Assembly (NCBI GenBank): GCA_025923995.1
Contig: JAICEW010000029.1
Span: 1 to 32,775 of the forward strand
Source: Vicinamibacteria bacterium
GTDB lineage: Bacteria; Acidobacteriota; Vicinamibacteria; Fen-336
DNA length: 32,775 bases
Direction: 5' to 3'
Within the stretch, counting starts at the first letter, position 1, and each line of letters starts with the position of its first letter. A model generated the notes under the pieces. The model had not been told where the DNA came from and made no database searches. It saw only the letters and a list, made by a program, of their open reading frames with translations. Below are positions 5,035 to 32,775 of the stretch, piece by piece. A program made the translations under genes and the position numbers.

Positions 5035-5913
5035 TCAACCCTCCGCGACGCTCAGCGTGTGCGTGTAGCGCGCGGCGGCCAGGAACTCCCGCGGCGCCAT
5101 CCCGCTCAGCTCGCGGAACTCGGCCGTCATGTGCGGCTGGTCGTAGTAGCCGGTGTCGAGGGCCGCCTCCGCCAGCGACGACGACCCGCCGTGGATCAGC
5201 TTCAGCAGCCGCTGGAAGCGGAAGATGCGCGCGTAGACCTTGGGCGGCAGGCCGACCTGGTCGCGGAACGCGGCCGCCAGGCGGCTCTTCGAGAGGCCCG
5301 CCTCCTCCCGCAGCGCGCCGATGGGGACGGTCCCGCTGCTGCGCTCGATGCGCGCGGCCGTCCAGGACACGGCGGGCAGGCCCGGCGCGGTGCGGCCGGT
5401 GCGCTCCTCGATCCAGGCCGCGGCCCGGCGGAACCGCTCGTCGGTCGAGCCCGCCTCGAAGCAGCGCTCCGCGAGCTCCTCCGCGGCCCGGCCCACGACG
5501 TCGGCCAGGTCGAGCGTCCAGCCGCTGATCTCGCGCAGCGGCCGGGCCACGAGCGCCAGCGCTCCCGCCGGCTTGAGCCGGACGCCCAGCGTGCGGACCA
5601 GGCGCGAGCACTCGATCACGACCGGCCGCGCGTGCAGCCCCGACAGCCAGCCCGACTTCAGGACGGACGAGCCGACCCCCTCCACCAGGCGGATGGGGTC
5701 GCCCAGGTTGACCAGCAGCTCGATGCGCCCGTTCGGGAAGAGCCGCTTGTGCGGCAGCGTCGCGGTGCCCTCCGCGAACCAGAGCAGCTCCACGAGCGCG
5801 GACAGGTGCGCCGGGCGCCACTCCGCGTACGAGAAGCGTCCCAGCGGGTCGTCGTGCTCGAAGCGGACGACGCCCGGGAGAGGAGCGCGGGGCGCGGTCG
5901 CGAGGGATGCCAA
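5035..5913 (-). CDS. AraC-family transcriptional regulator
   Basis: The 292-residue protein has an N-terminal sensor-like region (about 20-160), including the RLFPNGRIELLVNLGDP segment seen in AraC proteins with a DUF6597-type N-terminus. The C-terminal double helix-turn-helix (about 190-285) contains GLSKSRLAAAFRDQVGLPPK, the second-helix region ALDTGYYDQPHMTAEFRELS and the closing GMAPREF. It likely controls the methyltransferase/VOC genes downstream, the divergent DUF2378-like gene, or itself. The only usable start is TTG at 5913: no in-frame ATG or GTG precedes the conserved region. A TAAGGT box lies 6 nt upstream of the TTG, so the mRNA may be leaderless. The ligand is not deducible. Confidence 0.88.
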   Translation of the reverse strand: MASLATAPRAPLPGVVRFEHDDPLGRFSYAEWRPAHLSALVELLWFAEGTATLPHKRLFPNGRIELLVNLGDPIRLVEGVGSSVLKSGWLSGLHARPVVIECSRLVRTLGVRLKPAGALALVARPLREISGWTLDLADVVGRAAEELAERCFEAGSTDERFRRAAAWIEERTGRTAPGLPAVSWTAARIERSSGTVPIGALREEAGLSKSRLAAAFRDQVGLPPKVYARIFRFQRLLKLIHGGSSSLAEAALDTGYYDQPHMTAEFRELSGMAPREFLAAARYTHTLSVAEG

Positions 5914-5919
5914 GGCGTG

Positions 5920-5925
5920 ACCTTA
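5920..5925 (-). promoter_or_regulatory. -10 box of the AraC-type gene, possible leaderless promoter
   Basis: On the minus strand TAAGGT ends 6 nt before the TTG start at 5913. It overlaps the opposing TATACT box by two bases, so the two promoters probably exclude each other. Confidence 0.35.
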
Positions 5926-5929
5926 TACT
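5924..5929 (+). promoter_or_regulatory. -10 box of the DUF2378-like gene, possible leaderless promoter
   Basis: TATACT ends 6 nt before the ATG at 5936, which puts the expected transcription start on or next to the start codon. There is no Shine-Dalgarno sequence and no good -35. Confidence 0.45.
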
Positions 5930-5935
5930 TTCCGG

Positions 5936-6496
5936 ATGGTCCTTGTCCGCGGGATCGCCTTCATCGGCGCCATGCAGTTCGTGAAGGACGAGTTCGGGGC
6001 GGAGGGCCATGACCGCGTCGTGGAGGCGCTGCCCGAGGCGAACCGCGCGACCTTCTCGGTTCCGCTGCGCGACTCCGTCTGGAAGCCCGTCGAGGACCTC
6101 GCGCTCTACGCGGGCACGGCGCGGCGCCTGCTGGCGCCCGACGACCCGACGTTCTACGAGCGGCTCGGCTTCCGGGCCGGTCGCGTCGAACGTGAGCAGG
6201 GCGGCTTCCACCCCATGGTCGTCGACGCCCCCACCGCGATACGCCTGGCCGGCATGATCTGGCGCTCGCTCTACGACGCCGGCCGCATGGAGATGATACC
6301 GGACCGCGCGTCGCAGGCGCTGGTGCGCATCCACGACTTCCCCACGTCGCCGGCGCTGTGCCAGGCGAACGGGGCCGCCCTGTCGGGCCTGCTGGGGAGC
6401 GAGGGGAGCCCGGTGACCTCCGAGAAGACGGCGTGCGCGCTCGAGGGAGCGCCCTTCTGCGAGTGGCGCGTGACCTGGGAATCGCCGACGGCCTGA
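5936..6496 (+). CDS. DUF2378 (TIGR02265)-like protein
   Basis: The 186-residue protein resembles the DUF2378/TIGR02265 paralogous family known from myxobacteria, in the opening VRGIAFIGAMQFVKDEFG, the ALPEANRATF segment and the long helical core. The C-terminal stretch, with a cysteine in EKTACALEG and another in PFCEWRV, recalls V4R and haem-NO-binding-like small-molecule domains, in which a Cys pair is seen near a Trp. Function is unknown; a sensory role is inference. The start ATG at 5936 lies only 22 bp from the divergent AraC start. It has no Shine-Dalgarno sequence but has TATACT 6 nt upstream. It could be functionally linked to the AraC regulator through the shared promoter. Confidence 0.8.
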   Translation: MVLVRGIAFIGAMQFVKDEFGAEGHDRVVEALPEANRATFSVPLRDSVWKPVEDLALYAGTARRLLAPDDPTFYERLGFRAGRVEREQGGFHPMVVDAPTAIRLAGMIWRSLYDAGRMEMIPDRASQALVRIHDFPTSPALCQANGAALSGLLGSEGSPVTSEKTACALEGAPFCEWRVTWESPTA

Positions 6497-6525
6497 GCCC
6501 CCACTCGTTCGCGCTGGGGCGAGCG

Positions 6526-6531
6526 TACGAT
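6526..6531 (+). promoter_or_regulatory. -10 box of the small hypothetical gene, possible leaderless promoter
   Basis: TACGAT ends 7 nt before the ATG at 6539. This placement is the reason for preferring that start over the in-frame ATG at 6530. Confidence 0.35.
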
Positions 6532-6538
6532 GGGGCCC

Positions 6539-6898
6539 ATGAGCAGGATGAAGCGGCTGTTCTCGGCCTGGCGCGGCGGCTCCGCCGATCGCGGTGGGCG
6601 GCCCGTTCCCGATGCCAGCCAGCCGGTGCGGGTCGACCGGGCAGGCGAGAAGCTCCTCGAAGTGCTGACCTCCGCCTCGGGCGAGCGGAGGGTCGGCATC
6701 ACGCGGGACGGGCCCGGCATCTATCGCCTGCGCGTCGAGACCTGGGCTCCCGACTGGGAGACCTTGGGGGTCGCGACGTGGATCCAGAGTGGGCACGACG
6801 GGGCCCTGGCCGAGAGCCAGGAGCACGCGCGCGCCCTGGCGGCGGAGGTGCTGGGAGAAGCGGGCCGGGACGAGGCGGACGAAGACGGCGAGCCGTGA
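6539..6898 (+). CDS. Small hypothetical protein (119 aa)
   Basis: I do not recognise this protein. It has a basic N-terminus (MSRMKRLFSAWRGG), a central segment that could form a small mixed alpha/beta fold (GERRVGITRDGPGIYRLRVE, then ETLGVATWIQSG) and an acidic C-terminus. There is no signal peptide or membrane segment, so it is probably cytoplasmic. Two in-frame ATGs exist, at 6530 and 6539. I chose 6539 because the first overlaps a TACGAT -10-like box (6526-6531), leaving 7 nt to the second. The stop overlaps the GTG start of the next gene by 4 nt (GTGA), implying co-translation and supporting that it is real. Confidence 0.6.
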   Translation: MSRMKRLFSAWRGGSADRGGRPVPDASQPVRVDRAGEKLLEVLTSASGERRVGITRDGPGIYRLRVETWAPDWETLGVATWIQSGHDGALAESQEHARALAAEVLGEAGRDEADEDGEP

Positions 6899-15994: not shown

Positions 15995-18394
15995 CTACGC
16001 CAGCTTCACCATGTCCTTGAGCTCGGCCAGCATCTCGTCGGCCGAGCCGTGGCGCAGCTCAGGGCGCGGGTGCAGGTTGCGCAGCAGCAGCTTGTCGAGG
16101 GCCTCGGGCACGCCCGGCGACAGCGTGCTCGGCATGGGCAGCGCCGCGCCCTGCGGCTGCGAGCGCGGGTGGATGCCGGTCAGCAGGTGGTAGAGCACGC
16201 CCGCCAGCGCGTAGATGTCGCCGGAGGCGTCCAGCTTGTTCTCCGGCGCGCGGTAGCCGGGCTGCGGCCCGTGCGCGTGCGCCAGCCGGCCCAGCCCCAG
16301 GTCGGCCAGCTTCACCACGCCGTTCGCGACCATCAGGTTCGACGGCTGGATGGACCCGTGGACGAGGCCCTTGCCGTGCACGACCGACAGCACCTGCGCC
16401 AGCACGCGGCCCAGGCTGTGGACCTGCTTGACGGTCATCTTGTGTCCGCCGGCCAGCGCGTCCGCGAAGCTGCGGCCCGCCACGTGTTCGGTCACGATGT
16501 AGCGCTGCCCCTGCAGGTCGACGAGGCCCAGGATCTTCACCAGGTTCGGATGCGACACGGCCGCGGCTGCCTTGAGGTCCGCGCCCATGCGCCCGAGGCC
16601 GTCGGCGCCCAGCAGGTCGGGACGCAGCCAGCGCAGCGCCACGCTGCGGCCGTCCACCGAGTCCTCGCCCCGGTAGACGACGCCGAGCGGACCGCGCCCG
16701 ATCTCCTCCTTCGGCGAGAACCGGGGTCCGCGTCCGCCCGCCGGCGCTTCCGCGGGACGGGTCGGCGAGCCGGCCGCGGGCGCGGCGGCGGGCGGCGGCG
16801 ACGGGAGCGGGCTCTCCGCGCCGAGCAGCGGGGGCGGCGCCAGGGGGGGCACGTTGCCGCCCTCCTCGAGTCGGGCCACGCGCTTGCCGACGTCCTGGTA
16901 GTGGAGGTTCTCGGACTGGACCTTGCGGAAGATCGCCAGGGCCTCGGTGTTCTTGCCCGCGGTCTCCAGTCCCACCGCCAGCCAGTAGTAGAGGTCGAGC
17001 GTCGTCGGCGACACCGGCTGGCTCCCCAGCACCTTCTGCACGCGCTCGACGGCGAGGCCGGGCCTGCCCTCCTCGATGAACATGCGGGCCAGCAGCTCGG
17101 TCGCCGCTCCGTAGTTCTCGTCGTTGGCCGCGACCCGCTGCAGCAGCGCGATCGCCTTGGCGCGGTCGCCGGAGCGCGCGGCCGACTCGCCGCTCTTGAA
17201 GGTGAAGCCGGCCTTCTCGTAGAGCGGGATGGCGCGGCCGCCCAGGCCGGCCTCCTCGTAGAGCCGCGCCGCCGTCTCCAGGTCGCCGGCCCGCTCGTAG
17301 CTGAGGGCCGCCTTCTCCTTGAGCCCCGCGCGCACGTAGACGTTGCCGGCCGCGGCCCAGCTCTCGCCCGCCTCGTAGGCCCCCGCGGCCTGCGTCAGCA
17401 TCCCGACCGACTCGAACAGCTCCGCCGAGCGGAGGTAGTCCTTGCCCTGCTGGAAGAAGTCCGCGGCCTGCGGGACCTGGCCCTCCTTGAGCGCGACCTC
17501 GCCGCGCAGGTTGGCGGCGGCGGGCAGGTCTCCCGCCTTCTCGTGAGCCTCGGCCGCGCTGCGCGCGTCCTCGGCGCGCATGAACAGCTCCGCGGCCTTC
17601 GTGTACTGCTTCAGGGTCATGCACACGGCGGCGGCCTGCTTGAAGTAGCTGCCCTTCATGTAGATGTTCAGGGCCTTCTGCAGGTCGCCCGCCTTCTCGT
17701 AGAGCCGGCCGGCCTGTAGCGAGCTCTTCTGGTCGGCGGACGAGGCGGTCGCGGAGTACGTGGTCGCGTAGGAGACGTTCTCCATGAAGTGCTGCTCGTA
17801 CGCCTGGGCCGCCTTCGTCAGGTCGCCCAGCTTCTCGTACGCTTCCCCGGCGCGCTGCGGGTATCCGCTCTTCATGTACAGGTCAGCCGCCTTGTCCCAC
17901 ACGCCGCCCTGCCCGTAGAGCCTCGCCGCTTCCAGGTTGTTCCCCTTCTCCTGGAAGAGCGCGGCCGCCTTGGCCGGCTTGTTCGACAGCGTGTAGACCT
18001 GCGCCGCCTTCTTGTAGTCGCCCGCCTGCAGGAACAGGTCGGCGGCCTTGTCGAGCCGGCCGAGCTTCTCGAGACCGGCGGCCGCGGCCCAGAACTCGCC
18101 GCCCTCGATGTAGGCCTCGATGGCCTCGTTGGGCTGGCCGTTCTCCTCCAGCAGCTTGCCCGCGGCGAGGAACTGCCCGCTCTTGCGCAGCTTCCCGGCC
18201 TGCCGCTGCGTCTGCCCCTTCGCATAGCCGGGGCCGAGTACCTTCCCGATGACGTCGTCCGCGCTCAGGCCGCTTCCGGGGATCTTGAACCGGACCGACG
18301 GAGCGAAACGACGATAGAGGTAAAGGACGACGACCAGACCCACGAGCCAGGGGACGTAGGGGTTACCCAGCAGTAAGTCGAGAATGAAGCTCAT
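15995..18394 (-). CDS. Membrane-anchored TPR protein with C-terminal pseudokinase domain
   Basis: The 799-residue protein begins with a membrane helix (about 14-29). A long TPR/SEL1-like solenoid follows (about 65-510), with many units of the form AGDLxKAAxLYxKAG. After a Pro/Ala-rich linker (about 515-555) comes a Ser/Thr-kinase fold (about 560-798). The kinase looks catalytically dead. The glycine loop IGRGPLG (565-571) is present, but the VAIK lysine is Arg588 (VALR) and HRD is replaced by HGS (679-681). DFG is DLG (698-700), and only 15 residues separate it from APE (716-718), so the activation segment is short. The asparagine (N686) and the metal-binding Asp698 remain. It probably acts as a scaffold or allosteric partner. 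It is divergent from an intact kinase at 18545. ATG at 18394 has only a weak GGGA upstream. Confidence 0.9.
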   Translation of the reverse strand: MSFILDLLLGNPYVPWLVGLVVVLYLYRRFAPSVRFKIPGSGLSADDVIGKVLGPGYAKGQTQRQAGKLRKSGQFLAAGKLLEENGQPNEAIEAYIEGGEFWAAAAGLEKLGRLDKAADLFLQAGDYKKAAQVYTLSNKPAKAAALFQEKGNNLEAARLYGQGGVWDKAADLYMKSGYPQRAGEAYEKLGDLTKAAQAYEQHFMENVSYATTYSATASSADQKSSLQAGRLYEKAGDLQKALNIYMKGSYFKQAAAVCMTLKQYTKAAELFMRAEDARSAAEAHEKAGDLPAAANLRGEVALKEGQVPQAADFFQQGKDYLRSAELFESVGMLTQAAGAYEAGESWAAAGNVYVRAGLKEKAALSYERAGDLETAARLYEEAGLGGRAIPLYEKAGFTFKSGESAARSGDRAKAIALLQRVAANDENYGAATELLARMFIEEGRPGLAVERVQKVLGSQPVSPTTLDLYYWLAVGLETAGKNTEALAIFRKVQSENLHYQDVGKRVARLEEGGNVPPLAPPPLLGAESPLPSPPPAAAPAAGSPTRPAEAPAGGRGPRFSPKEEIGRGPLGVVYRGEDSVDGRSVALRWLRPDLLGADGLGRMGADLKAAAAVSHPNLVKILGLVDLQGQRYIVTEHVAGRSFADALAGGHKMTVKQVHSLGRVLAQVLSVVHGKGLVHGSIQPSNLMVANGVVKLADLGLGRLAHAHGPQPGYRAPENKLDASGDIYALAGVLYHLLTGIHPRSQPQGAALPMPSTLSPGVPEALDKLLLRNLHPRPELRHGSADEMLAELKDMVKLA

Positions 18395-18544: not shown

Positions 18545-20425
18545 ATGGTGCAGAAGGAGGACGAGGAGCGCGCTCCGCCGAAAGATCCGTCCGCAGCCGA
18601 CCTGCTGACGGCACAGGACATCTTCGGCGAGGTCCTCGAGTCGCTCGGCGAGAACTACGCTCCGCCGCCCGAGGCGATCGCGCCTCCGAGCGAACGGCGC
18701 TCACCGATCAGGGTCCAGGTCTCGGAGCCCGGCGCCGTCGAGAAGCCAGGCGTGGCTTCCGCCGCCGACGAGGTGCTCCCCGAGGAGCTGGCGAACCTCC
18801 TCGACGCGTTCGATCCGCAGCCGCCTGCGGAGGACGCGAGCGAGAGCGAAGCAGAGCCCCCGCCGGTCGAGAGCCCGGCGATCGAGCCCCTGCTGGCTGT
18901 CGCGCCGCCCGGACCCGTCGCTTCCGAACCTCCGGCCCCCGAGCCCATGGCTGAGCCCGAACCGGCCCTCCCCGATCCTCCGCCGCCGGTTCCCGAGCCC
19001 GTCGCCGCGTTCCACGCGCTCGACGAGGGGGACGAGGAAGAGGTGCTCGACTCGGTGCTCCCGCCGGGCGGCGAGGACGGCGAGCCGGACCTGCAGCCGG
19101 CGCTCGAGACGCCGTCGCGGCGCGCGCGGCCACCGCTGCGGCGCCGCAAGCAGCGCCCGGGCTTCTCGCCCGAGGAGGCGCTGCGCGACCTCCAGAACCT
19201 CCGTCCGCCCTTCCTCACGCCGAAGCCGGCCGCCAGCGGTCCGATCGACCTGGCCTCGCTGGTCGAGCAGGCGCTGGGCACGCCCCAGGCGAAGGGATCG
19301 CACGCGCCCGAGCCCATCGTCGACGGCACCTACGGCCCGTACCGTCTGCTGCAGAAGATCGCGGTGGGCGGCATGGCCGAGGTGTTCAAGGCCAAGCGCA
19401 CCGGGGTCGAAGGGTTCGAGAAGGTGGTGGCGGTGAAGCGCATCCTGCCCCACCTGTCGGACAACAAGGAGTTCGTCGAGATGTTCATCGACGAGGCCAA
19501 GATGGTCGCGGGCCTCGCGCACCCCAACATCGTCCAGATCTCGGACCTGGGCAAGATCGAGAAGAGCTACTACATCGCGATGGAGTACGTGCACGGGCGC
19601 GACCTGCGCACGATCCTCCGCCGGGCCAAGGAGCGCGGGCTGCGGCTGCCGCTGGACCTGACCGTCCTCATCGTCAACAAGGTCTGCTCCGCGCTCGAGT
19701 TCGCCCACCGCAAGAAGGACGAGCGCGGGCGGCCCATGCTGATCGTGCACCGCGACATCAGCCCCCAGAACATCCTGATCTCGTTCGAGGGCGAGGTGAA
19801 GCTGACCGACTTCGGCATCGCCAAGGCGGCCACCAAGGCGCGCATCACCGACGCGGGCGCGCTGCGCGGGAAGCTGCTCTACATGAGCCCGGAGCAGGCG
19901 TGGGGCAAGCCCATGGACCGCCGCTCCGACCTGTTCTCGCTGGGCATCGTGTTCTACGAGATGCTCACCGACCAGAAGCCGTTCCTGGGCAGCTCGGAGA
20001 TGAGCATCCTGGAGATGGTGCGCGAGTGCCGGATCGCGCCGCCGTCCGACGTGAACCCGCGCATCCCGGAGCGGCTGGAGAAGGTCGTGATGACCGCGCT
20101 CGACCGCGAGCCGGACCACCGCTACCAGGACGCGTCGCAGATGTACCGCGAGCTGGACCGGGTGCTGCACGAGCGGCAGCCGCCGACGGCGATCGAGCTG
20201 GCCCGCTTCCTGGAGCTGCTCTTCGACGAGGAGGAGCGCACCGAGGCGCGGCCGGAGGAGCCGCCCGAGCCGGCGCCGGCGCGGTCGGAGGAGATCGAGT
20301 TCGAAGAGGCCGGCGCGGCCGCCCAGGAGGCACCCGCTTCCGCGGCGCCCGAGGGCCCGGATCCGGGCGGGATCAAGGACCCGCTGTCCATCCAGAAGCT
20401 GCTGAAGAGATTCGGCATCAAGTGA
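18545..20425 (+). CDS. Ser/Thr protein kinase with long disordered N-terminus
   Basis: The 626-residue protein has an N-terminal region of about 260 residues rich in Pro, Glu and Ala, predicted disordered. A complete Hanks-type kinase domain follows (about 263-545): glycine loop IAVGGMAEVFKA, VAVK lysine Lys298, catalytic HRD with Asp404 in HRDISPQN, DFG with Asp422, and SPEQAWG in place of APE. An acidic tail follows, ending in a conserved-looking basic patch (IQKLLKRFGIK). There is no membrane helix, so it is soluble. ATG at 18545 is chosen; a TTG at 18533 is possible, and neither has a clear Shine-Dalgarno sequence. A sigma70-like promoter lies at 18476-18505. The coiled-coil gene begins 17 bp downstream, and accD follows. 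Targets are unknown. Confidence 0.92.
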   Translation: MVQKEDEERAPPKDPSAADLLTAQDIFGEVLESLGENYAPPPEAIAPPSERRSPIRVQVSEPGAVEKPGVASAADEVLPEELANLLDAFDPQPPAEDASESEAEPPPVESPAIEPLLAVAPPGPVASEPPAPEPMAEPEPALPDPPPPVPEPVAAFHALDEGDEEEVLDSVLPPGGEDGEPDLQPALETPSRRARPPLRRRKQRPGFSPEEALRDLQNLRPPFLTPKPAASGPIDLASLVEQALGTPQAKGSHAPEPIVDGTYGPYRLLQKIAVGGMAEVFKAKRTGVEGFEKVVAVKRILPHLSDNKEFVEMFIDEAKMVAGLAHPNIVQISDLGKIEKSYYIAMEYVHGRDLRTILRRAKERGLRLPLDLTVLIVNKVCSALEFAHRKKDERGRPMLIVHRDISPQNILISFEGEVKLTDFGIAKAATKARITDAGALRGKLLYMSPEQAWGKPMDRRSDLFSLGIVFYEMLTDQKPFLGSSEMSILEMVRECRIAPPSDVNPRIPERLEKVVMTALDREPDHRYQDASQMYRELDRVLHERQPPTAIELARFLELLFDEEERTEARPEEPPEPAPARSEEIEFEEAGAAAQEAPASAAPEGPDPGGIKDPLSIQKLLKRFGIK

Positions 20426-20704: not shown

Positions 20705-21541
20705 TTGGCCTGGTTCCGCCGCGAGCAGACCTCACTGCCCCGCGGGCAGCAGGAGAGTCGTGTCCCCGAGGGCCTCTACGTCAAGTGCGACTCGTGCAAG
20801 GAGCTCATCTACCGCAAGGACCTGGCGGAGAACCTCCAGGTCTGCCCCAAGTGCTCGTTCCACTTCCGCATCTCGGCCCGCGAGCGGCTCGACCTGCTGT
20901 GCGATCCCGGCTGGGAGGAGTTCGACCGCGGGCTGGTGAGCACCGACCCGCTCCAGTTCAAGGACACCAAGCCGTACGCCGGCCGCCTCAAGGACAGCAA
21001 GGCCAAGACCGACGCACTGGACGCGGTAATGACCGCCGCCGGGGCCGTCTCCTCGCTGCCGGTGGTGGTGGCGGCGATGGAGTACGGCTTCATCGGCGGA
21101 TCGATGGGCGTGGTGGTGGGCGAGAAGGTGACCCGCGCGGTCGAGCGCGCGCTGGAGTCGCGCCACCCGCTGATCGTCGTCTCCTGCTCCGGCGGGGCGC
21201 GCATGATGGAGGGGACCCTCTCCCTCATGCAGATGGCGAAGATCTCGGCCGCGCTCGCCCGCCTGCACGAGGCGCGCATCCCGTTCCTGAGCCTGATGAC
21301 CGATCCCACCACGGGCGGCGTCACCGCGTCCTACGCGATGCTGGGCGACCTGAACCTGGCCGAGCCGGGCGCGCTCATCGGCTTCGCGGGCCCGCGCGTG
21401 ATCGAGCAGACCATCCGCCAGAAGCTGCCCGAGGGCTTCCAGCGGTCGGAGTTCCTGCTGCAGCACGGCATGATCGACCTGGTGGTCGACCGGCGCGAGC
21501 TGAAGGAGACGGTCGCGCGCTGCCTGCGGCTGCTGGGCTGA
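20705..21541 (+). CDS. accD: Acetyl-CoA carboxylase carboxyltransferase subunit beta
   Basis: AccD is the beta half of the carboxyltransferase that moves CO2 from carboxybiotin to acetyl-CoA, making malonyl-CoA for fatty-acid synthesis. The 278-residue protein has the N-terminal four-cysteine zinc ribbon (Cys28, Cys31, Cys47 and Cys50). The crotonase-fold core shows SCSGGARMMEGTLSLMQM, MTDPTTGGVTASYAMLGD and GFAGPRVIEQTI. The length is normal. The start is TTG at 20705, preceded by GGAGGAG; the encoded MAWFRR is typical of AccD. AccA and the biotin subunits are not in this window. The gene is in line with a Ser/Thr kinase, while the usual neighbour folC is absent. Confidence 0.97.
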   Translation: MAWFRREQTSLPRGQQESRVPEGLYVKCDSCKELIYRKDLAENLQVCPKCSFHFRISARERLDLLCDPGWEEFDRGLVSTDPLQFKDTKPYAGRLKDSKAKTDALDAVMTAAGAVSSLPVVVAAMEYGFIGGSMGVVVGEKVTRAVERALESRHPLIVVSCSGGARMMEGTLSLMQMAKISAALARLHEARIPFLSLMTDPTTGGVTASYAMLGDLNLAEPGALIGFAGPRVIEQTIRQKLPEGFQRSEFLLQHGMIDLVVDRRELKETVARCLRLLG

Positions 21542-29187: not shown

Positions 29188-32100
29188 ATGCCTGGCAACG
29201 CCTCCAAGGCGCTGGCGACCGCGTTCGCGGGCATCCTCGCGGCGCTCGTGCCCCGTCCCCTCACGGCACAGTCGTGCGTCAGTGCTGGCTTCCTTCCAGC
29301 GGCCACCACCGCGGTGGGCCCCAACGCGACGGGGATCGTGGCCGAGGACTTCAACCGTGACGGTCGGATCGACCTCGCGGTTGCGAGCGCGGCGTCGTCG
29401 AGTGTTTCCCTGCTGCTGGCGGCGGAGCCGAGCGGGTTCCATCCAGCCGCAACGATTCCCGTCGGACCGGCGCCGTTCGCACTCACGTCGGCCGACGTCA
29501 ACCGCGACTCGAAGCCGGATCTGCTCGTCCCCAATCGGGACGCCAACAACGTCTCGATCCTGCTCGGCGACGGGGAGGGCGGCTTCACGGCGGCACCGAC
29601 GGTCGGCGTGGGCGTTGCACCCGTGGGCATCGCGGCCGCGGACTTCGACCGCGATGGCGATGTTGACTTCGCCGTCGGGAACGCGGGGTCGGCGAGCGTG
29701 TCGGTGCGGCTGGGCGCGGGTGATGGCACCTTCACTGGCGCCGAGGTGCCGGTGGGCTCATCTCCCAGGGGGATCGTGACCGGCGACCTCAACCGGGACG
29801 GCCGACTCGACCTGGTTGTCGCCAGTTTCGATGGCGGAGCCGTCTCCGTGCTGCTGGGGAACGGAGCCGGCGGTTTCGGCGCGGCCACCGCCTTTCCTGC
29901 GGTGGCCGGCGCACTTGGAGTGGCGATCGCCGACTTCGACCGGAACGGCCGCCCCGATGTGGCCGTCACCGGCTTCTCCAGCGATGCCGTCGCCGTGTTG
30001 CCCGGCGACGGCATCGGTGGGCTGGGAGTGCCGGTCGTGAGCACCGCAACGGGTCAGCCGCGAGGCATCGCGGTGGCCGATTTCGACCGGGACGGCCGGC
30101 TCGATCTCGCGGTTTCGCTGAATGCTGCGAACGCTGTCGCCGTGCTGCGCGGAGAGGGCAATGGCGCGTTCGTTGCTGCTGCGCCGGTCCCGTCAGGCGA
30201 CGCACCGAACGGGTTGGTGGCCGCGGATATCGATCGCAACGGCAACGCGGATCTCGCGATTGCCAACCAAGGCTCGGCCAACGTGTCCATTGCTCTCGAC
30301 GCGCCGCCTCCTGCCTGCACGCGGTCGTCGTTCCCCTCAGCCCCCCAGACGTTCCGGATGGGCAGCGGCGACGGGATCATTGGAGCCGGCGACTTCAACA
30401 ACGATGGCGCGCTCGATGTGCTCGGACTCACCCTCGGGGCGGGGCTGACGTTCATGGCGGGTGAGGGATCCGGGCAGTTCACCGCCGGCGCCTCCGTGGG
30501 CCAAACGGGCACGTTCCGAGCGCTCGAGGTGGCCGACCTCAACGCCGATGGCAACCTTGACGCGGTCGCAACCCAACCCCAGGACGGCCTCATCCGGGTC
30601 TTCCTGGGTGACGGCAGGGGCGGCTTCACGCAGACACACTACGCGGCCGGCCCCTTCCCCGAGGGGCTCGCCATCGCCGACCTGAACGGCAACGGAGTGC
30701 CGGACCTGGCGGTCACCCTGAACGGAGGCGGGGTGGTCATGACCCTGCTCGGCACGGGGACCGGGACGTTCACGAGCGGAGGGGTGTGGCCCGCCGGCCC
30801 AAACCCCGGCGCCATCGTGGCATACGACCTGAATGGCGACGGCCGCATGGACCTCGCGGTTGCGGATCGACCGTTCGTCCCCAGGCAAGTCGTGGTCCTC
30901 CTCGGCAACGCCACCGGCGGGTTCGATCTCCTGCCACCCTTCCCAGTCGAGGTCTACCCGACAGGCATGGTGGCGGCCGACCTGAGCGGCGACGGGATTC
31001 CGGACCTCGCGGTCGTCGATTACTGGATCCCCCGTGTCGTCATCTACACCGGCAACGGTGACGGCACGTTCGCGATGGGCCCGGACATTCCCCTCACCGG
31101 CAACACCTACGCGGTCGAGACGGCCGACCTCGACTCCGATGGACGGCCGGAGCTCCTGGTCACCAACTTCGAGCCACTCGTCAGCGTGATCCGGGGGGAC
31201 ACGGCCTCCGGCTTCGTCGCTCGCCACTACCCGATCGCCCGCGCCAGCTCCTCGGTGGGTGCGGGTGACTTCGACTCGGACGGGCGCGCGGATGTCGCCG
31301 TCGGCGACTGGTCAGGGGTCTTCTCGCTGCTGCGAGGGGACGGAGAAGGCGGCCTGGTGACGGCTGCGGCGATCCCGGTCGGCGCCGCGCCCACGTCCCT
31401 GGCCGCTGCGGACCTGGACCGGGACGGCCGTGAAGATCTCGTGCTCGGCCACGCGGACGGCGTGTGGACGATGCGCGGGAATGGAGCCGGGGGCTTGGGG
31501 GAGCCTCAACCGACGCCATTGGGCTTCGAGCCGGCCGCGACGCTTCTGGCGGACATGGACGGGGACGGGATCGTCGATCTCGTGGCCACCGACCCGGGCG
31601 CTGGCGTCGTGGTGGTGCGGTCCGGCAACGGCTCAGGCACGTTCGGTGCGCCCTCCGCGTACGCGACGGGCGCGGGCGCGCGTCGGGTGGCATCCGGCGA
31701 CTTCGATGGCAACGGTCGGCCGGATCTGGCCGTCTCCAACGTCGAAGCCCAGACCGTATCGATCCTGCTCAACGACGGCTCGGGGACGCTGGTCGCCGCT
31801 CCACCGTTGGCCATGGCCGGCATGCCGTCGGGCCTCGCGGTCGGCGACTTCGACCGCGACGGGCGCGTGGATCTCGCCATCACCAATCGCGTCGAGCTCG
31901 AGGGCAGCTTCACCGTCTGGCGCGGGCAGGGCGACGGCACCTTCACGAACCTGGCCACGGTGGCCGCCGCACCGTTTCCCGACGACTCCTTTGCCCAGGA
32001 TCTCGACGGCGACGGGATCCTCGACCTCTCGGTTCTCTGTGACTATGCGTTCTTCACGATCGTTCGGCATTTCGCGGGGGACGGTCGCGGGGGGTTCGTC

Positions 32101-32775
32101 GAGATCGAGCCCGCCCTCGGATCGTGGGTCGGCATCGGCGAGGCCCGACAACTGGTGATGGCCGACATCGACCGCGATGGCCGTCTCGATCGACTGGTCG
32201 CCAACTACGGGAGCAACCTCTCGATCGGTCGCGGCCGGGGCGACGGGACCTTCGATGCCGCCCAGGGGTTCATCACCGGCCTGACGCCGTCGGCGCTGGC
32301 CGTGGCCGACTTCGATCGGGACGGACGGAGCGACGTTGCGGTCGTCCAGCGCGAGGATTCGAGTGTCGTGATGATGCTCAGCACCCGGTGCCAGCCGCAG
32401 CGGCTACGCGTGCAGCGCGAAGTCTCGTCCTGCGACGCACCCGGGGTCCCTTTTGCGGTCCAGCCGCGCCTGGAGGCGGTGGACGACGGCGGCAACGTCG
32501 CGGCGTGCGCGCGCGGCAGCGTGCAGGCCTCGATCGTGACGCAGCAACCGGCGGTGTTGCTGGGGACGACGAGCGTCCCGCTGCTGTCGGGCGCCGCGCA
32601 ATACGTCGACCTCGCGGTCGACCAGCCGGTCTTCGGCGCACGTCTGCGATTTGCCTCGGGAGGGATGAGGGCGGCTCGCGGCCGCACCTTCACGCAGGGG
32701 CTGGGCGTGAACATTGCCGGCCCGAGTCCCGTCGCCCTGGGATCCTCGCCGACGTACGACGCCGGAAGCGGCTAC
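29188..32775 (+). CDS. Large exported FG-GAP/VCBS-repeat protein (3' end outside window)
   Basis: The frame is open for 1196 codons and runs off the window. A signal peptide (about 1-27, ending RPLTA) leads into 21 FG-GAP-type repeats of about 45-50 residues, each with a calcium-loop-like motif such as ADFDRDGRLDLAV. The repeats form one block of 7 (about 50-370) and a second of 14 (about 390-1065), matching three seven-bladed beta-propellers. A Cys marks each block edge (Cys30, Cys377, Cys1068). A different beta-rich region begins at about 1068 and ends in GPSPVALGSS. The protein is probably secreted or surface-exposed and calcium-binding. The start has no clear Shine-Dalgarno sequence; a TAAGAT box at 29161-29166 would give a short leader. 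Codon choice looks less GC-biased than in the preceding genes. Confidence 0.9.
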   Translation, partial: MPGNASKALATAFAGILAALVPRPLTAQSCVSAGFLPAATTAVGPNATGIVAEDFNRDGRIDLAVASAASSSVSLLLAAEPSGFHPAATIPVGPAPFALTSADVNRDSKPDLLVPNRDANNVSILLGDGEGGFTAAPTVGVGVAPVGIAAADFDRDGDVDFAVGNAGSASVSVRLGAGDGTFTGAEVPVGSSPRGIVTGDLNRDGRLDLVVASFDGGAVSVLLGNGAGGFGAATAFPAVAGALGVAIADFDRNGRPDVAVTGFSSDAVAVLPGDGIGGLGVPVVSTATGQPRGIAVADFDRDGRLDLAVSLNAANAVAVLRGEGNGAFVAAAPVPSGDAPNGLVAADIDRNGNADLAIANQGSANVSIALDAPPPACTRSSFPSAPQTFRMGSGDGIIGAGDFNNDGALDVLGLTLGAGLTFMAGEGSGQFTAGASVGQTGTFRALEVADLNADGNLDAVATQPQDGLIRVFLGDGRGGFTQTHYAAGPFPEGLAIADLNGNGVPDLAVTLNGGGVVMTLLGTGTGTFTSGGVWPAGPNPGAIVAYDLNGDGRMDLAVADRPFVPRQVVVLLGNATGGFDLLPPFPVEVYPTGMVAADLSGDGIPDLAVVDYWIPRVVIYTGNGDGTFAMGPDIPLTGNTYAVETADLDSDGRPELLVTNFEPLVSVIRGDTASGFVARHYPIARASSSVGAGDFDSDGRADVAVGDWSGVFSLLRGDGEGGLVTAAAIPVGAAPTSLAAADLDRDGREDLVLGHADGVWTMRGNGAGGLGEPQPTPLGFEPAATLLADMDGDGIVDLVATDPGAGVVVVRSGNGSGTFGAPSAYATGAGARRVASGDFDGNGRPDLAVSNVEAQTVSILLNDGSGTLVAAPPLAMAGMPSGLAVGDFDRDGRVDLAITNRVELEGSFTVWRGQGDGTFTNLATVAAAPFPDDSFAQDLDGDGILDLSVLCDYAFFTIVRHFAGDGRGGFVEIEPALGSWVGIGEARQLVMADIDRDGRLDRLVANYGSNLSIGRGRGDGTFDAAQGFITGLTPSALAVADFDRDGRSDVAVVQREDSSVVMMLSTRCQPQRLRVQREVSSCDAPGVPFAVQPRLEAVDDGGNVAACARGSVQASIVTQQPAVLLGTTSVPLLSGAAQYVDLAVDQPVFGARLRFASGGMRAARGRTFTQGLGVNIAGPSPVALGSSPTYDAGSGY
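29344..32343 (+). repeat. 21 FG-GAP protein repeats
   Basis: The encoded protein repeats the pattern [AG]D[FLI][ND]xDGxxDLxV about every 45-50 residues, 21 times by direct reading. Seven copies precede the Cys377 linker and fourteen follow it. The DNA copies have diverged, so this is a protein-level repeat rather than a recent tandem duplication. Confidence 0.85.

Follow-up and report, generated by a model that had tools for sequence, protein, structure and literature searches.

In this study, we analysed a stretch of 32,775 nucleotides from a Vicinamibacteria soil bacterium (the whole stretch is hereafter called the window) and observed that one of its genes encodes a degenerate kinase-fold domain carried on a helical solenoid. 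This domain is a pseudokinase kept by selection, since an arginine in place of the ATP-anchoring lysine and HGS in place of HRD are fixed in its orthologues, its dN/dS is 0.185, its predicted fold is intact and so is the reading frame; the original prediction that the domain is selected rather than decaying stands on these grounds. As to its role, we infer, somewhat in favour rather than firmly, that the protein acts in trans on a canonical kinase, to which it would be an allosteric or scaffolding partner with no catalysis of its own.

The gene (15995..18394, minus strand), identified from its open reading frame, Pfam matches and coding statistics, starts with ATG and encodes 799 aa; the frame is open throughout its 799 codons, as had been claimed, coding statistics are strong, and the residue numbers given earlier proved exact by codon check. 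The protein opens with a membrane helix, continues as a helical solenoid and, beyond a Pro/Ala linker, ends in the kinase-fold domain, all of these parts being encoded on the same strand. The membrane helix is predicted at residues 7-30 (18305..18376) by hydropathy and model and is followed by basic residues, which would put what follows on the cytoplasmic side. The AlphaFold model places this helix at residues 14-30 with low pLDDT, and hydropathy finds it in five of six orthologues, the sixth being cut by a contig end, which bears out a predicted membrane anchor. The Pfam Pkinase model matches residues 561-748 (E 1.3e-23, far past the cut-off), and several repeat models, among them TPR-type models above their cut-off, as well as IFT140/IFT172 also match the protein. 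The Pro/Ala-rich linker (residues 511-557; 16724..16864) has a pLDDT of about 33-50 and a dN/dS of 0.344.

The solenoid covers residues 55-510 (16865..18232) and, with reference to autocorrelation, AlphaFold and Foldseek, is built mostly of 10-residue helices joined by 3-residue loops. For residues 61-505 the autocorrelation has its peaks at 13, 26, 39 and 52, and the 13/26-residue period covers residues ~73-420. AlphaFold, whose pLDDT is 83-95 over the greater part of the solenoid, displays the short helices and loops in most of the stretch from 75 to 420, mainly at pLDDT values of about 85-95, followed by longer, TPR-like helices from about residue 425 to 510. The best Foldseek matches of the full-length model are IFT-A subunits and the TPR superhelices of OGT/SPY, all in the solenoid, as is also seen in the Pfam IFT140/IFT172 match; the TM-scores of this model are low because of the length of the protein and its uncertain overall curvature, and Foldseek was used here for the type of match alone. 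Classical 34-residue helix-turn-helix TPR repeats were not found over most of the solenoid, where the period is 13/26. The solenoid is therefore best described as short-helix 26-residue hairpins of IFT-A-like form, and the earlier label of TPR scaffold is fair for the family but only loosely right: the C-terminal part is TPR-like and the fold is kin to the IFT-A/TPR superhelices, but the repeat is mostly one of 13-residue helices. IFT-A subunits also differ in being eukaryotic transport proteins, whereas the solenoid of the window protein is made of short helices and is joined to a kinase-fold domain.

The pseudokinase domain was delimited at residues 558-799 (15998..16723, minus strand) by Pfam, AF2 and Foldseek, and its key positions, all read on that strand, were assigned by alignment and codon check. 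Arg588, within VALR, replaces the beta3 ATP-anchoring lysine (16631..16633), Asp606 the alpha-C glutamate (16577..16579) and HGS679-681 the HRD motif (16352..16360). Among the markers kept are the catalytic-loop asparagine N686 (16337-16339, by codon check), the metal-binding aspartate of DLG698-700 (16295..16303) and APE716-718 (16241..16249). Arg588, HGS and these fold markers had all been named before; the changes of the alpha-C Glu to Asp606 and of the catalytic-loop Lys to Gln683 are losses beyond that list. The activation segment from DLG to APE counts 21 residues inclusive, where the canonical kinase domains of the alignment have 27-43; it is short as claimed, the figure of about 18 given then being a count up to APE.

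An alignment of 46 kinase domains placed these changes in context. Domains outside the pseudokinase clade harbor the canonical key residues and DFG-APE segments of 27-43 residues, with minor deviations: an HHD loop, a DYG and an SAE in place of APE occur once each, and the group of the kinase that neighbours the pseudokinase gene has a serine at the catalytic-loop lysine position. Within the clade of the window protein, arginine replaces the beta3 lysine, HGS replaces HRD, glutamine (arginine in one member) replaces the catalytic-loop lysine, and the alpha-C position holds aspartate except for glutamate in one sequence (L025); Asn686, Asp698, the Glu of APE, the alpha-F Asp and the alpha-I Arg are retained. 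In a full-length AlphaFold model from a 4-row alignment, the kinase part had a pLDDT of about 30-60, and the domain was then modelled separately. This AF2 model, from 13 aligned rows, reached a mean pLDDT of 85.3 and a pTM of 0.86, so the structure prediction proposed earlier gives a clean kinase fold; its Foldseek matches are PknA, Stk1/PknB and PknE, with TM about 0.8 to PknA/PknB. The domain thus combines a kinase fold with the loss of at least one catalytic residue and with losses conserved in orthologues, as expected of a pseudokinase, and alignment finds neither the intact VAIK lysine nor the HRD aspartate of an active Hanks-type kinase. Ordinary phosphotransfer by this domain is very unlikely because the phosphate-anchoring lysine and the catalytic aspartate are both lost, and retention of the glycine loop, N686 and D698 makes Mg-nucleotide binding possible.

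Out of the 17 genomes of the window's order in our collection, 10 carry the gene, and all ten belong to one family (f1), with orthologues 58-63% identical. R588 and HGS stand unchanged in each of the eight sequences of the family whose domain can be read, and this invariance indicates that the losses are more than chance; the orthologue alignment yielded no true orthologue in which Lys and HRD are restored. Between two genomes of the same genus (G002 vs G010), dN/dS was 0.185 for the pseudokinase and 0.151 for the solenoid, which places the dead domain under roughly the constraint of the solenoid; for the linker it was 0.344. The interpretation that the gene is decaying, or that it is an assembly or frame artefact, can point to its absence from one genus of the family and to a broken frame in one draft genome; we give it hardly any credence, as open frames of 750-1079 codons occur in seven genomes with dN/dS of 0.15-0.19, the substituted residues are invariant and independent assemblies agree. 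As a separate observation, the pseudokinase domain of G009 (L026/L038, around 5455-6813) is partly duplicated in frame in a 1043-codon ORF, the first copy truncated and the second without the start of the N-lobe; this could be a genuine duplication or a collapse in the assembly.

A different catalytic loss was noticed in another family, f10. Two of its genomes (G030 and G034) hold full-length homologues, 38% identical to the window protein, in which the beta3 Lys, the alpha-C Glu and HRD are intact, DFG is replaced by GLG or GFG, and the segment is 22 residues long. The proteins of the two families form one clade in both the kinase tree (100/99) and the solenoid tree (97/94). This clade has degenerated by two routes, because the f10 proteins drop the DFG Asp and keep Lys and HRD on the same short activation segment. 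The simplest reading would be that the segment was shortened in a common ancestor and that the lineages then lost different catalytic residues; this is moderately secure, given the long stems (0.8-1.05). The other solenoid kinases, in f10 as elsewhere in the phylum, have canonical motifs, which makes an active solenoid kinase the probable ancestor. The f10 gene that neighbours the DFG-less pseudokinase, where the window has a Ser/Thr kinase, is a divergent MshEN-T2SSE (PilB/GspE-like) secretion/pilus-type ATPase (divergent arrangement at L028:8001-9560 and L029:8074-9693). The canonical f10 solenoid kinases (L030, L031, L084, L085) lie in a different but conserved neighbourhood, next to a gene for a transporter-like protein of some 558 residues.

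Degenerate and canonical kinase domains were repeatedly observed together in one chain. Within the window's family, an intact 1079-codon ORF of G003 (L027) comprises the solenoid, a canonical kinase (VALK, HRD, DFG) and the HGS pseudokinase, and a frame-broken draft gene of G001 has the same order. The two inserted kinases are sisters (100/100); they group with other kinases in the tree, and their origin as tandem duplicates of the pseudokinase was rejected. Phylum-wide searches of Acidobacteriota disclosed tandems of solenoid, kinase domain A and kinase domain B in 15 genomes from nine families (f15, f16, f23, f24, f29, f33, f40, f46 and f48). In 14 of these genomes the HRD Asp is missing from domain A (the replacements being NRN, HKN, ARV, ARN, HGA, FGA, HGH, HGQ and HNR), as usually is the beta3 Lys; domain B has canonical motifs throughout the set, its G125 copy losing the end to a frame problem. 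G125 (L089) is also the sole case among the 15 with canonical motifs in both domains, and the end of its ORF looks frame-shifted. A quick tree places the tandem A domains together (SH-aLRT 99), apart from the window clade (99), which sits with solenoid kinases; descent of the window pseudokinase from domain A is unsupported by this quick method with its long branches. Because the A domains occupy a separate branch, degeneration beside the solenoid probably happened more than once, and the analogy between tandems and window protein is one of convergence, not of direct descent. No tandem protein was found in the window genome at the threshold used, so a partner would be needed in trans.

The genome neighbourhood offers one candidate for such a partner. 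A canonical Ser/Thr kinase (VAVK, HRD, DFG) with no evident membrane helix is encoded divergently at 18545..20425 on the plus strand, 150 bases from the pseudokinase gene, followed by an accD-like acetyl-CoA carboxylase subunit (20705..21541, plus strand), a conserved syntenic neighbour. Neighbouring genes were called with per-genome training (L077, L080 and L082 are still miscalled, and the context of G005 was left out). The three genes occur together in seven genomes (G000, G002, G003, G004, G006, G008 and G012); in G009 kinase and pseudokinase stand together before the contig ends, an amino-acid-permease-like gene lies between the two in G002, G004 and G009, and in G001 they are apart and not adjacent. 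Three genomes (G005, G011 and G013) keep the kinase alone, and in G011 and G013 the small gene normally found after the pseudokinase adjoins the kinase directly with the gap closed up, which looks like a clean pseudokinase loss. It follows from these two genomes that the neighbour kinase does not need the pseudokinase, and obligate dependence was rejected on the evidence of all three. The earlier proposal of the neighbouring kinase as partner therefore keeps the plausibility of a conserved adjacency but is weakened. In several genomes a conserved protein of ~160-180 residues with no Pfam match follows the pseudokinase gene (L025:5886-6425, L027:9581-10132, L078:12093-12581); in genomes that lack the pseudokinase its gene adjoins that of the kinase. 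An anti-phage defence kinase was considered and rejected: the PADLOC matches PD-T4-6, mad6 and MkoA are generic kinase matches that score higher in the canonical neighbour, and no NCBIfam cut-off was reached. Elsewhere in the window, 29188-32775 encodes a very long FG-GAP repeat protein with 16 matched stretches that runs past the window end.

In the mechanism we propose, the protein would be tethered to the inner membrane face by its N-terminal helix. Its solenoid of short helices would bind a client or a signal, and the kinase fold at its C-terminus would dock on a canonical kinase and alter the activity or placement of that kinase. The partner would act in trans in the window genome, and some relatives have a kinase fused in cis; the divergent neighbour kinase would be the first trans candidate, chosen by position alone, and may be the wrong one. 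Dead domains recurring beside working kinases suggest control of other kinases and not phosphorylation of their own, and it is this repeated pairing in cis that weighs most in favour of kinase control over a generic scaffold. Fusion in cis is an association, and leaves the sign and mechanism of regulation aside. The original suggestion of a scaffold or allosteric regulator is thus still an inference, now with independent support from recurrent pseudokinase-kinase fusion on the same solenoid architecture.

A pure scaffold without allostery, in the manner of MviN, is the less probable of these roles, though worth serious thought: the domain or linker would be phosphorylated and recruit, for example, an FHA protein, with the fold as an interaction surface. 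MviN is a precedent for a scaffold pseudokinase (PMC12599244), the long low-complexity linker and large solenoid would suit such a role, and the neighbour kinase persists without the pseudokinase; yet the recurrent pairing in cis with a canonical kinase exceeds what a generic surface needs, the linker is fast-evolving, and phosphosite and FHA partner are supposition. An unconventional enzyme, acting as a weak kinase or by AMPylation (as SelO) or glutamylation (as SidJ) through Asp698/Asn686, seems improbable. Its appeal lies in the glycine loop, N686 and D698, conserved across the family orthologues, and in the HG-type loop that SelO also has, but none of the beta3 Lys, HRD Asp and catalytic-loop Lys is preserved, and the alpha-C Glu is usually changed as well. 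SelO and SidJ retain the beta3 Lys (PMC12599244), and among solved structures the closest folds are those of ordinary PknA/PknB-type kinases.

The window protein was compared with known systems. The fold and the best sequence and structure matches are those of PknB/PknA-type (Hanks) kinases, from which the window protein differs in having lost the beta3 Lys, HRD Arg and Asp and catalytic-loop Lys, in its 21-residue activation segment, and in an N-terminal solenoid with no extracellular sensor. EssB/YukC likewise combines a single membrane pass with a non-catalytic kinase fold and a short activation loop, but its glycine loop is degraded too, and it belongs to type VII secretion, of which no genes were identified around the window locus. 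MviN/ActPs3 of actinobacteria shares a degenerate membrane-protein kinase domain with an activation-loop deletion, but has all three catalytic motifs degraded (VALT, no DFG), whereas the window protein conserves the DLG Asp and catalytic-loop Asn and so falls outside that type (PMC12599244). The window protein carries its membrane segment at the N-terminus, and the 60 best PDB matches listed do not include MviN. Nor does it belong to DLHK, which keeps the HRD Asp, has DFG degraded and lacks a membrane segment, the window protein having HGS, DLG and an N-terminal helix. Bacterial pseudokinases are already known (EssB/YukC, MviN, SidJ, SelO; PMC12599244), and the window lineage is a variant set apart from ActPs3 and DLHK by the features tested. 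A 2025 review of bacterial Ser/Thr pseudokinases recognises seven families with mostly unknown functions, and its text does not mention TPR, Acidobacteria or tandem arrangements (PMC12599244). No bacterial solenoid pseudokinase or tandem pseudokinase-kinase was found in the literature covered, which is weak evidence of absence, as subscription papers lay outside its scope.

For mechanism, JAK, GCN2, STRAD and plant tandem kinases are the comparisons to be made, human JAK kinases carrying a dead kinase domain beside a working one in one protein. Relatives of the window protein similarly pair a degenerate and a canonical domain in one chain, and the G003 protein and the tandems are JAK-like in this sense; the window protein, a lone pseudokinase with one kinase domain, is not, and its group is bacterial, solenoid-led and of separate origins. 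More tentatively than for the window protein itself, Acidobacteriota may have evolved solenoid-pseudokinase allosteric control of a canonical Ser/Thr kinase more than once, fused or in trans, as a counterpart of JAK/GCN2. With catalytic losses that differ between two relatives sharing a shortened activation segment, the order of pseudokinase-making events becomes open to study, and the solenoid pseudokinase lineage together with the phylum-wide tandems provides a natural test of allosteric kinase control by bacterial pseudokinases.
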